Below, in pieces: positions 3,517 to 43,366 of a stretch of DNA of 64,000 nt. Position 1 is the first letter of the stretch. The number at the start of each line of letters is the position of its first letter. The notes below the pieces were generated by a model. That model did no database searches, was not told where the DNA came from, and saw nothing but the letters and a program-made list of their open reading frames with translations. Source of the stretch: Pycnopodia helianthoides (Eukaryota > Echinodermata > Asteroidea > Forcipulatida > Asteriidae); NCBI GenBank assembly GCA_032158295.1, contig CM063251.1, positions 14,087,757 to 14,151,756 of the forward strand, given 5' to 3'. Made by a program: the position numbers and the translations under genes.

Positions 3517-3710
3517 CTGGAGTCTCAACACGTGTGTAGTGGTAAGGGTTGACGCACACCTCGTCTCGTTTGAGCCGGAAAGCAAACTCACAGTGCTCGA
3601 CCGGCTTGAGCTCATGGTGGCTCTGTAGGTCCGGCCACCTCCACAGTCGACAGTACATGACGTGGGGTAGACCCTTCTTGTGGGACACCTGGAGACGGCC
3701 ATCAAGGGAC
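3517..3710 (-). CDS. Smad2/3: Smad2/3 coding exon 2 (C-terminal half of MH1)
   Basis: This exon encodes [20 protein letters not shown], then [16 protein letters not shown], and ends [16 protein letters not shown]. That is the second half of an R-Smad MH1 domain. [13 protein letters not shown] forms the DNA-contacting beta-hairpin, and the Cys and His of CVNPYHY are zinc ligands. [10 protein letters not shown] is the Smad2/3 form, whereas Smad1/5 has EVCINPYHY, so this is the Activin/Nodal/TGF-beta branch. The acceptor ends CTGTAG just before 3710 and the donor is GTAATG after 3517. The exon completes the Arg codon split with exon 1 and leaves one base for the next exon, as expected before [10 protein letters not shown]. 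The protein is a cytoplasmic-to-nuclear transcription factor activated by type I receptor kinases. Linker and MH2 are outside the window. Confidence 0.97.
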
Positions 3711-4217
3711 CTACAGGTGCAGTGACCAAAGAACACAACGATACACTGTTAAAAGTAACTCTCTTCCTATAGCACATAATATACACACATGTAGATAACT
3801 GTTCACGGAGTGTGCAGTTACATTATACAAGGGGAGAGGGGAATTCCTGAAGAGATTGAGTCAAGTTGTCAGTTTGGACATGGTCATTCAGTGCAACTGA
3901 CCACGAGCACTCCAACGGACAACGACCATGGTCATTACTGTGTTGGTGAACAAAATAGAAAAACACTGAATATTTTTATATCACATTTAAATACTGCATT
4001 AAATATTGCCCAAAGGTACATACAAGCAATGTATCTCAAATAATTCTAACTATTTTTTTTCTTTTGTTTTTTTCCTACAATCCTTGACTTTATGTAGAGA
4101 TCAACACAAAAACTGCACAATTTCAATGAACTCAACTGTACACTTAACTGTAAAAAATACACATTTGTGCATGTACATGTACATTATACATTACATTATA
4201 CATTATATGTACATGAG

Positions 4218-4377
4218 CAGGCCCGGAATTTCATCTTTAACAGGGCAAGGCCATTTTCATTTTGGAAAAAGGGCACTTCCATTGGAAAATTTTAAAGTCT
4301 TTGGGAAACTTTTGAAGGTGCACCACTGCCAAGACCAGGGCAATGGAGGCCATAGCCTCCGTGTCATTCCAGGCCTG
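4218..4377 (+). repeat. CAGGCCTGGAATT-type MITE copy
   Basis: Near full-length copy beginning CAGGCCCGGAATTTCATC and ending CATTCCAGGCCTG. TGTACATG occurs just outside both ends (from 4208 and 4379), compatible with an 8-bp target duplication, although that word is very common here. Confidence 0.8.
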
Positions 4378-5434
4378 ATGTACATGTACATGTAGTCAAC
4401 AGGGCAGTATTTTGTGCATTGTAACATTTGTTTTTATGTTTACTAAATTATTATTAAAACATAGGCATGCTGTCCAAGATTCTCTCCAAAGCTACAAATT
4501 GAGTACATGATTACATGTGCATGTACATGAGTACATTGTACATGAACATGCACGTGAACATGTAGCACAAAGATCTGTCATCAAAATGTATAGGAGGCAT
4601 ACTACATTGTATATACAGAACATAAACATAAAACAGCCCTAATGTTACTTTGTAGGTACTGTACACATACACATCACAAAATGTATCTTTGACAAAAAAT
4701 GAGCATACATGTACCCTGCACACGTATTTGACAAAGCCTCTGAATGAAACAAGGTCAAAGTGATCAGTGAATTAAGTACAGTGGAATTATGGCTTCAGAG
4801 ATAAGACAGACAGGCAGGCCTGCAGTGCCCTCACATGTAGACTGGAGTGGGTTTATACAAGCATTACACACCCAAGTGTGGACCCAAGGACAAAAGTGGT
4901 CCACTCAAGGCAGGGTTTTGAAACACTTTGTGGACTTGCACACGTGCACACAGAGTTTTGTTTTTACAGTGTTGAAGAATAGGATTTTCCTGAAGTGTAC
5001 AGAACAAAAGAAAGTCCACAGAGGGTCATGTTTAACAGTAACACACACAGAGCTGGGTGTACATGATTAAAGTAGTTATGTACAGTGATGTTACAGTACC
5101 TCAATACAGCTCACTTTACAACAAACTAACAGTGCATACTGTCATGACTGTGTATGAAACGATGTACGTATACTAATTTGCTAGAATTGGCTGAGGTTTG
5201 TAAATGTAGCCAAGATTTGTTGCCAGTATGTAGGAGCGCTCAAATTTGCTGTAGTGTAAATAGTTCATGTATTATGAAGGTTCTTTTTTAAAAACTTTTA
5301 CTTGCAAGCTCCAACTTGCCTCAAAATATCCCACGCTACAAGCACATAAACAGTGTCGTCCATGCCACACCGTTCTTTCATAAGTACGAGTGTGCATAGT
5401 CAATCTGTGCCACATACCACCACAGCAATCCATG

Positions 5435-42130: not shown

Positions 42131-42163
42131 AGACTCGAGCCGCGCCAAAATGTCTAGACGTCT
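42131..42163 (+). promoter_or_regulatory. Smad6/7: Smad-binding element cluster upstream of Smad6/7
   Basis: AGAC (42131), CGCGCC (42141-42146), a 5-bp spacer, then GTCTAGACGTCT (42152-42163). GTCTAGAC is the perfect palindromic Smad3/Smad4 binding element. CGCGCC-N5-GTCT differs at one position from the BMP-type composite GRCGNC-N5-GTCT bound by Smad1/5-Smad4. TGACTTA (AP-1-like, 42166) and CCAAT (42179) follow. It lies about 0.77 kb before the Smad6/7 start codon. Vertebrate Smad7 promoters are known to carry GTCTAGAC, so direct feedback induction is the natural reading, but it is inferred. Confidence 0.6.
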
Positions 42164-42927
42164 CGTGACTTAAATAAGCCAATCAGCGGACTCGGAGTTG
42201 TGAGCTCACATTCTGTGTAGTAAAACCACTCGTGTTGATTTTTCGTTCATCGCGCACACACGTAACGCAGCATCCAATCACGATCACATACATTTTGTAT
42301 ACACATTATCAAAAACTCACATGTACGGTGTACATTGTAGAGTGCACATGTGTGTGAATGTTTCTCTTACTGTAGATAACTAGTGGATGGAGAGCCTTAA
42401 CTTCTTGTGTCGGATTTTTCTCAGCGTGGATGTTTTTAAAAGTTGGGAGATCGTGACCGAAGACGATTTGGGATTGCTTTATCTATGTACCTTTGGGATT
42501 TTCTCCTCGCATTGGTGCGGCGGAAGTGTACGTAATCTGCCTGTGGATGCAAGGCGCTGTGCTGGCGTCACGTTGCCGCGGAGTAGGCCAATGCACTGAC
42601 TGTGCTCAACCGTATGACAACTCGCTCCGACCGGGGGTAAACTACGCAGGGCCTTGCTGCATGCAGTGCATTCATTACCTTGCATAACGAATGGTGTGTG
42701 GGGGGAAGGGAAAGAGCTACTGTTTATGTCTTGACCTGTGTAACGGTACACGAGGATTCACTGTGTAGAAGAGTTCGCTTTGGGCCGGTTACTCCTTGAC
42801 CACCACCAGCCCCCGCCACAACTGATGCTGAGACCAAAACTGGATTTAAACTGAGAGGGTTCCGGCGCATGGAATGGTCAACGACAGACTCCGTGGGCTA
42901 TGACCGTGTGCACAAATCCTATGTCGC
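42164..42927 (+). promoter_or_regulatory. Smad6/7: Smad6/7 proximal promoter and 5' UTR region
   Basis: Start site unknown. A CCAAT box (42179) and a weak TTAAATAA (42169) are the only core-like signals. An in-frame TGA at 42901-42903 precedes the start codon by 24 bases, so the protein cannot begin further upstream in this exon. Confidence 0.5.
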
Positions 42928-43366
42928 ATGTTCAAGTCCAAGCGCACGGTACTTATCCGGCGACTCTGGAGGAGCCGTGGTGGTTCTGCCACCGGCGAAC
43001 AAGGCCCCGATAGTCAGGGATTCGACCGCGACTTGGAGACCGATCCCGAGTTCAAATCGGCTGCCCACAGCCTCCTGAAACGATTGAAAGATCGACAGCT
43101 CGAGCTGTTGCTCGATGCCGTCGAGAGCCGCGGAACGACATCGACCGCCTGCGTCCCCCTCCCGAAGGGGGACGTGCGCCTGGGCAGGGGGAGGACCGCT
43201 CCACCGCATGTGTTGTGCTGTCAGCTTTACCGCTGGTCAGATCTCAAACAAGCTACCGAACTTAAAAGACTTAACTTTTGTTGTCAAACAGGACGTGATG
43301 TGGAGGAATTTAGCTCAGGAATCGTATGCTGCAACCCCTATCATCTCAGCCGCTTGTGTCGGCCAG
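42928..43366 (+). CDS. Smad6/7: Smad6/7 (inhibitory Smad) exon 1 with MH1-like domain
   Basis: The exon encodes MFKSKRTVLIRRLWRSR, as in vertebrate SMAD6/7 (MFRSKRSGLVRRLWRSR). The divergent MH1 follows: SLLKRLKDRQLELLLDAVES, then CCQLYRWSDLKQATELKRL and finally IVCCNPYHLSRLC. SMAD7 has LKERQLELLLQAVESRGG and CCNPHHLSRLC, so the assignment is clear, and divergence from R-Smads is typical. Unlike vertebrate I-Smads, the stretch between the basic N terminus and MH1 is only ~30 residues. I-Smads bind activated type I receptors through MH2, recruit Smurf ligases through a PPxY motif and block R-Smad phosphorylation. PPxY and MH2 are not in this exon. The donor GTAAGA follows 43366 and leaves phase 1. 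Smad6 and Smad7 arose by vertebrate duplication, hence the joint name. Confidence 0.96.

Follow-up and report, generated by a model that had tools for sequence, protein, structure and literature searches.

Negative feedback by inhibitory Smads (I-Smads) is known in vertebrates, and ancient conserved microsyntenic blocks of metazoans are said to have been described by Irimia in 2012. We take the human SMAD3–SMAD6 neighbourhood to lie at 15q22, with SNAPC5 outside the Smad pair and with GTF2A2 near this region at 15q22.2; SMAD2 and SMAD7 are presumably located together at 18q21. In the pig, a single 2.9 Mb interval on SSC1 lists, among others, MAP2K1, SNAPC5, RPL4, ZWILCH, LCTL, SMAD3, SMAD6, AAGAB and IQCH, and in cattle SMAD6 and SMAD3 are separated by about 0.2 Mb on BTA10. 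A study of flounder places SMAD6 among the neighbours retained by both teleost SMAD3 copies, and reports that long stretches upstream of SMAD3 have been lost in gar, elephant shark and anole. In echinoderms, ancient microsyntenic blocks are reported within TAD boundaries (PMC13317027); four examples described there are Tbx2/3, Foxa, Pax1/9 and Egr, with no Smad among them.

The starfish locus described here resembles the vertebrate neighbourhoods, in which a TGF-beta/activin-type receptor Smad (R-Smad) likewise lies near an I-Smad, with SNAPC5 in the interval. It differs in that both SNAPC5 and GTF2A2 are situated between the Smads, with four genes in view within about 45 kb, whereas in the pig list SNAPC5 is set apart from the Smads by RPL4, ZWILCH and LCTL. 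In the ancient metazoan blocks, too, developmental genes have long been linked to unrelated genes, and the locus is a further case of a known phenomenon, conserved microsynteny. In contrast to the blocks set out in PMC13317027, the gene order at the starfish Smad locus is probably unconserved, and the locus is known here from sequence alone.

Gene content and order of the locus

The whole stretch of DNA analysed, 64 kb and referred to here as the window, contains spliceable exons of Smad2/3 (− strand), complete SNAPC5 (+) and GTF2A2 (−) genes, and exons of Smad6/7 (+). Gene content, exon structure and gene identity can be read from it directly. A preliminary description had proposed this order and these strands, which proved right by tblastn, Pfam and exon joins; gene models and domains also confirmed its claim that R-Smad and I-Smad exons lie within 40 kb with SNAPC5 and GTF2A2 between them. 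The limits of the block as then drawn are true exon ends, since Smad2/3 exon 2 finishes at position 3517 and Smad6/7 exon 1 at position 43366. Both Smad genes extend past these limits with the addition of Smad2/3 exon 3 and Smad6/7 exons 2 and 3, and their MH2 parts lie beyond the window. The tblastn queries were human proteins. The exon joins were judged by eye: their borders are AG/GT and the reading frame is preserved across them.

The coding part of Smad2/3 exon 1 (23696–23892, −; start codon at 23892) is 73.9% identical to human SMAD3 and ends in a phase-2 donor. It is separated from exon 2 by an intron of about 20 kb (3711–23695, −). Exon 2 (3517–3710, −), with good splice borders and a Pfam MH1 match, encodes the C-terminal part of the MH1 domain, including the hairpin RLQVSHKKG, and is 83.1% identical to human SMAD3. 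The linker exon 3 (1018–1152, −; VLPPVLVPR...), bounded by AG/GT, shows 59.1% identity to human SMAD3 by tblastn and 64% to the lamprey protein P0064. The spliced product matches Pfam MH1 with an E-value of 5e-42. Its best match among solved Smads (14 distinct sequences compared) is the SMAD3 structure 1ozj, at 1.5e-76, with the hairpin aligning free of gaps, and in a 21-row Smad tree it falls in the expected group with support of 86/82. No convincing Smad2/3 MH2 was found in the window by tblastn with human SMAD3 or lamprey P0064. The product is predicted to be a DNA-binding receptor Smad of the TGF-beta type.

Some 19 kb separate the starts of Smad2/3 and Smad6/7, and two genes of basal transcription lie in this span. 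SNAPC5 stands head to head with Smad2/3, 1,330 bp separating the two start codons (23893–25222), and in this interval the observed/expected CpG ratio is 0.81 compared with 0.56 for the whole window. SNAPC5 exon 1 (25223–25312, +) is 97% identical to P0121 from Asterias amurensis, exon 2 (25949–26044, +; CAG/GTAAGG borders) 56% over the aligned stretch, and exon 3 (26539–26790, +; stop codon included) 71%. Comparison with the human protein by tblastn gave two pieces, of 42% and 44% identity, which carry little weight on their own (E 0.002 and 0.011); the spliced product matches Pfam PF15497 at 1.1e-10, scoring 42.4 bits against a cut-off of 23.6. The three named SNAPC5 matches are all from starfish (49–74%). 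The exons of GTF2A2, exon 1 (36241–36312, −), exon 2 (33918–34022, −) and exon 3 (31797–31943, −; stop codon included), are 78.6%, 66.7% and 68% identical to human, respectively. Spliced together, they match the N-terminal TFIIA_gamma domain at 3.4e-21 (75.5 bits, cut-off 33) and the C-terminal domain, TFIIA_gamma_C, to which exon 3 contributes, at 9.9e-19 (67.7 bits, cut-off 27).

Smad6/7 exon 1 (42928–43366, +; MFKSKR...) encodes a whole MH1 domain and gives a tblastn E-value of 2.5e-28 with the human protein. As a stand-in for full-length Smad6/7 we used P0125, a 386-residue public protein from a 3,086-bp transcript contig. Exon 1 is 100% identical to it; exon 2 (44186–44239, +), which carries the PY motif PPPPYSRF and was placed by tblastn and its exon joins, matches it throughout; and the linker exon 3 (45407–45529, +) is 97.6% identical, with one difference in 41 residues. 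Intron 3 exceeds 18 kb. The spliced product matches Pfam MH1 at 1.4e-27. The MH2 part of P0125 (residues 206–386) has no match within the window; it ends in LTRPRLH rather than SSXS. The best of the named Smad6/7 matches is from Acanthaster, which together with the starfish SNAPC5 matches supports an echinoderm source, and in the 21-row tree P0125, which matches window exons 1–3, pairs with the Acanthaster protein (100/100) within the echinoderm I-Smads (99/98). From the PY motif and, as judged from P0125, the lack of a C-terminal SSXS, the Smad6/7 product is predicted to be an inhibitory Smad.

Further coding genes were sought by comparing 30 of the 295 listed open reading frames of at least 60 residues with Pfam, and none matched at 0.01; among 10 more, those above cut-off were MH1 (three frames) and TFIIA_gamma_N (one). 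The screen thus covered 40 of the 295, and genes built of short exons may escape it. The window has no Rfam match at the gathering threshold and no tRNA according to ARAGORN. Repeats are present, one of which (29930–30002) sits between SNAPC5 and GTF2A2.

Age of the linkage

The ancient linkage put forward in the preliminary description for all four genes stands for Smad2/3, SNAPC5 and Smad6/7, on the strength of the pig interval, the SMAD6–SMAD3 distance in cattle, the teleost neighbours, and SNAPC5 and Smad6/7 in Acanthaster planci. In the last of these, P0123 (SNAPC5) and P0126 (Smad6/7) seem to be on one contig, the sameness being taken from the size, 4,920,582 for both. Because Smad2/3 and Smad6/7 are also neighbours in mammals, their closeness is probably an old inheritance. 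By a hand estimate assuming 20,000 genes and leaving SNAPC5 uncounted, the chance that a single Smad6/7 falls within three genes of Smad2/3 is about 3e-4. SNAPC5 lies inside the Smad pair in starfish and outside it in the order of the pig list, which may not be strictly positional. The order therefore probably differs from that in mammals, so that only gene content would have been kept. Also weighing against a retained neighbourhood are the losses upstream of SMAD3 in gar, elephant shark and anole.

The best reading of this comparison of a few species is that the Smad2/3–SNAPC5–Smad6/7 neighbourhood predates the vertebrate Smad duplications. We consider it likely, with a probability of roughly 0.7, that the locus is an ancestral deuterostome neighbourhood of these three genes retained in starfish, GTF2A2 being a further gene at this locus. 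Should the linkage prove general among deuterostomes, the SMAD3–SMAD6 neighbourhood, and with it that which we take to join SMAD2 and SMAD7 at 18q21, would predate the vertebrate genome duplications. In the part of the open-licence literature searched, we found no report of Smad2/3–Smad6/7 linkage in an invertebrate.

Candidate Smad site upstream of Smad6/7

Motif searches and shuffles picked out a possible composite Smad site, GAGCCGCGCCAAAATGTCTAGACGTCTCGTGAC, at 42137–42169 (+). It contains the palindromic Smad site GTCTAGAC (42152–42159), the sole copy in the window, whose end is 768 bp upstream of the Smad6/7 start codon and which has a GC-rich box 5 bp ahead of it. In the proximal promoter of vertebrate SMAD7, with its GTCTAGAC element, CGTGAC likewise comes after TGTCTAGACG on the same strand; the starfish site has CTCGTG where that promoter has a CACGTG E-box, the comparison being with two human probes whose spacing is not matched. 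When the probes were joined, the score of the site context was reached in 0, 8 or 16 of 1,000 shuffles, according to the spacing assumed between them; that of the SBE probe alone was reached by 36 of 1,000 shuffled versions of the 1-kb region and, when the window as a whole was shuffled, by 74 of 100. The BMP-type elements GGCGCC-N5-GTCT and GRCGNC-N5-GTCT have no exact copy in the window. Allowing one mismatch gives 11 occurrences of the latter, one of them falling at the site (42141); as 10 shuffles averaged 7.1, this is not evidence.

It is possible, if doubtful, that the ancestral Smad6/7 beside an R-Smad already bore a feedback element, GTCTAGAC then CGTGAC, which was later kept at vertebrate SMAD7. 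Were this true, I-Smad autoregulation at the promoter would go back more than 550 million years, to the deuterostome ancestor, and could be traced from starfish to human; the site offers a direct test of the age of I-Smad negative feedback.

Retention and origin of the Smad pair

In the proposed mechanism, an activated R-Smad/Smad4 complex would bind the candidate site upstream of Smad6/7, more I-Smad would be made, and receptor signalling would be damped. The Smad2/3–Smad6/7 pair would thus most likely form an ordinary feedback loop in trans, use of the site being presumed, for which the locus provides a compact echinoderm setting where both partners can be tested jointly. Feedback of the kind suggested by a Smad site ahead of Smad6/7 does not depend on linkage, and slow rearrangement, not a shared switch, is the most likely reason why the genes have stayed close. 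The linkage could instead be under selection as a genomic regulatory block, with Smad enhancers in or beyond SNAPC5 and GTF2A2 and these housekeeping genes as bystanders. Two housekeeping genes do lie between two signalling genes, Smad2/3 intron 1 (20 kb) and Smad6/7 intron 3 (>18 kb) leave room for enhancers, and echinoderm blocks within TAD boundaries provide a precedent in the four examples, none a Smad, from PMC13317027. SNAPC5 is, however, inside the pair in starfish and outside it in mammals, by the pig list order and the human map as given above, so the order is probably not fixed, and we regard such a block as rather unlikely.

An old neighbourhood kept by slow rearrangement is also preferred to explanations in which the linkage is recent or spurious. 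The probable difference in order from mammals is what would be expected had the adjacency arisen anew in starfish, the match to mammals being fortuitous; the trio would come together by chance with a probability below 1e-5 (hand estimate, 20,000 genes assumed), and we give this scenario very little credence. An assembly artefact joining two loci appears equally improbable: the repeat at 29930–30002 is a possible misjoin point, but the window is free of N bases, and SNAPC5 and Smad6/7 seemingly share a contig in another starfish, Acanthaster. The adjacency of the Smad genes and the phase-1 intron common to both at the end of the MH1 are features that a local tandem duplication would leave. Against this, the phase-2 intron splitting the Smad2/3 MH1 is missing from Smad6/7, and the R-Smads lie on one side of a branch with support of 100/99 in the 21-row tree, making such an origin very unlikely. 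A topology with Smad2/3 and Smad6/7 as one clade was ruled out on a small tree (p-AU 0.00047), and the suggestion that the pair are sister local duplicates was rejected with it. An older variant, with the duplication preceding the split of the R-Smads, may be compatible with the tree.

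Gene content of the window

Tblastn comparison of the window with human SMAD3, SMAD7, GTF2A2 and SNAPC5 sequences, with exon sequence and borders judged by eye, revealed four genes. Exons 1–3 of Smad2/3 (23892-23696, 3710-3517 and 1152-1018) and of GTF2A2 (36312-36241, 34022-33918 and 31943-31797) lie on the minus strand; those of SNAPC5 (25223-25312, 25949-26044 and 26539-26790) and of Smad6/7 (42928-43366, 44186-44239 and 45407-45529) lie on the plus strand. The exon joins of all four genes have AG/GT borders and keep the frame, and Pfam confirmed each family on the spliced products. 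Order and strands are as given in the preliminary description; its outer limits, 3517 and 43366, coincide exactly with ends of exons, although Smad2/3 and Smad6/7 each extend past them. The MH2 regions of Smad2/3 and Smad6/7 were absent from the tblastn matches in the 64 kb. We conclude that the gene neighbourhood is real and well delimited.

Human SNAPC5 by itself matches the window weakly (E values of 0.002 and 0.011 in tblastn), and the identity of this gene was settled by the Pfam match together with starfish SNAPC5 proteins. A protein search at E up to 0.1 matched four proteins, from Asterias amurensis (74%), Acanthaster planci (57%) and Patiria miniata (49%), with a fourth at 57%; the source animal is a starfish and, by protein identity, its SNAPC5 is nearer to Asterias than to Acanthaster or Patiria. 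The corresponding search with Smad6/7 matched 517 proteins. Among the best 120 of these, the top match is P0125, a public 386-residue I-Smad from a 3,086-bp contig, with 100% identity across 164 query residues, followed by an Acanthaster planci protein at 86%. Aligned back to the window by tblastn, P0125 has one difference in the 41 residues of exon 3.

Smad2 carries an insert at the MH1 hairpin. The window Smad2/3 is without it, retaining the 17-residue SMAD3 hairpin and aligning gaplessly to the solved SMAD3 MH1 domain. At the hairpin position the starfish I-Smad has GDVRLGRGRTAPPHV, in which the SMAD3 contact residues, R74, Q76 and K81, are only partly kept. A PY motif, PPPPYSRF, is present in Smad6/7 exon 2, and the C-terminus of P0125 is without SSXS. 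Judged from the sequences, Smad2/3 and Smad6/7 divide the work in the standard way, the former as activator and the latter as inhibitor.

Age of the linkage

Gene order outside the window was assessed from indirect evidence, namely a probably shared Acanthaster contig and published vertebrate intervals. SNAPC5 and Smad6/7 of Acanthaster planci very likely lie on one contig, since the longest contig given for either entry measures 4,920,582. In a pig study, a 2.9-Mb interval includes MAP2K1, SNAPC5, RPL4, ZWILCH, LCTL, SMAD3, SMAD6, AAGAB and IQCH (PMC9593086). A cattle marker table has SMAD6 (13.50-13.66 Mb), SMAD3 (13.86-13.98 Mb) and IQCH (starting at 14.08 Mb) on a single chromosome, and the prose of the same paper gives SMAD3 at ~13.7 and SMAD6 at ~13.9 Mb (PMC4457852); the order of the two SMAD genes is thus stated both ways, and their closeness is not in doubt. 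According to a flounder paper, SMAD6 and five further upstream genes are retained beside both teleost SMAD3 copies, and the smad3b neighbourhood has conserved synteny with elephant shark, gar and tetrapods, although gar, elephant shark and anole have lost long upstream stretches of the SMAD3 region (PMC5045880).

Taken together, the Acanthaster, pig, cattle and flounder evidence makes it the simplest reading that Smad2/3, SNAPC5 and Smad6/7 were already neighbours in the deuterostome ancestor, so that their linkage is older than the vertebrate Smad2/Smad3 and Smad6/Smad7 splits. The proposal of a block predating these splits is thus supported for the trio; GTF2A2, which in human maps to 15q22.2, is seen in the neighbourhood in one species, in this starfish window. 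The neighbourhood is probably ancestral and belongs to an already known class, conserved microsynteny. No report of invertebrate Smad2/3–Smad6/7 linkage was found in the open-licence literature searched, outside which the central microsynteny papers lay.

On the human map, RPL4, ZWILCH and LCTL lie between SNAPC5 and the SMAD pair. The same genes are named between SNAPC5 and the Smads in the pig list, which may not be strictly positional (PMC9593086). On these two grounds SNAPC5 would be outside the Smad pair in mammals, whereas it is inside the pair in the starfish window, and gene order is probably not conserved between them. If this is right, one of the two lineages has undergone a local inversion, and the case for a rigid regulatory block becomes weaker.

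Origin of the R-Smad/I-Smad pair

A tree was built from 21 sequences: 17 of 244 retrieved proteins, the partial Smad2/3 of the window and three further sequences (fly Mad and human SMAD1 and SMAD4), with P0125 standing in for the window Smad6/7. In this tree, which is limited by long branches (SMAD4, chicken Smad7 and crinoid) and by its sampling of one Smad4 and two BMP-type rows, the eight R-Smad rows fall on one side of a branch with support of 100/99, and the Smad2/3 group has support of 86/82. Forcing Smad2/3 and Smad6/7 together was 23 log-likelihood units worse (p-AU 0.00047). Both genes have a phase-1 intron where MH1 ends, but the phase-2 intron that interrupts MH1 in Smad2/3 is missing from Smad6/7. 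In view of the tree test and the unshared intron, a simple local origin of the pair, with Smad2/3 and Smad6/7 as direct sister duplicates, is disfavoured. The I-Smad could still have come from local duplication of an older R-Smad. Huminiecki and colleagues describe the I-Smad as the product of a separate, last ancestral metazoan duplication (PMC2657120).

A candidate Smad site upstream of Smad6/7

The window has a single copy of the palindromic Smad site GTCTAGAC, at 42152-42159, separated by 768 bp from the Smad6/7 start codon; 20 simulated windows gave a mean of 1.4 strand counts, or ~0.7 sites per window (~0.011 per kb). For the human SMAD7 promoter, the published EMSA probes are AAGCGACAGGGTGTCTAGACGG and CACGTGACGAGGCCGGAGCCGG (PMC5918965). 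Joined directly, they match 42151-42169 at 17 of 19 positions. With the probe spacing assumed to be none, one unknown base or one specified base, shuffling the 1 kb upstream reached the score in 0/1,000, 8/1,000 and 16/1,000 cases, respectively, and, for the first two spacings, shuffling the whole window did so in 0/100 and 12/100. The Smad-binding (SBE) probe alone gave 74/100 (whole window) and 36/1,000 (1 kb), and the AP-1 probe alone 37/100 and 360/1,000. Over 2 kb upstream, the counts per 1,000 shuffles were 52 (SBE), 432 (AP-1), 0 (joined), 9 (one unknown base) and 18 (one specified base); upstream of the other three genes, the best of all queries was 217/1,000. Since the motif choice was partly post hoc and the human probe spacing was assumed, we regard the site as a lead. 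If it is real, R-Smad/Smad4 protein would, as in vertebrates, turn on the inhibitor in trans, a form of feedback for which linkage would be unnecessary.

Repeats and other features

Intron 2 of Smad2/3 holds an array (1320-2929) in which a 27-bp unit (TTCACAGTGAACCCAACAAACACTGTG) recurs ~60 times, with several frames open. A dispersed ~150-bp repeat, 76-84% alike among the pairs listed, occurs in both orientations at 539-682, 4217-4363, 5452-5580, 25735-25881, 29930-30002, 32072-32240 and 58800-58942. There are also a 361-bp direct pair (8865-9222 with 14612-14963; 89% identity), a 152-bp inverted pair (34641-34792 with 35171-35024; 85%) and a 237-bp inverted pair (10184-10418 with 33871-33635; 97%), the last perhaps a recent mobile element. 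The open frame at 20028-20294, which gave no Pfam match at 0.01, contains GRPGRGRPKARWTENIRAL, presumably resembling the tail of retroelement polyproteins. Finally, on the minus strand, TATATAAATAGG occupies 36343-36354, ~30 bp ahead of the start codon of GTF2A2, and this gene, coding for a TATA-promoter factor subunit, may have its own TATA box.
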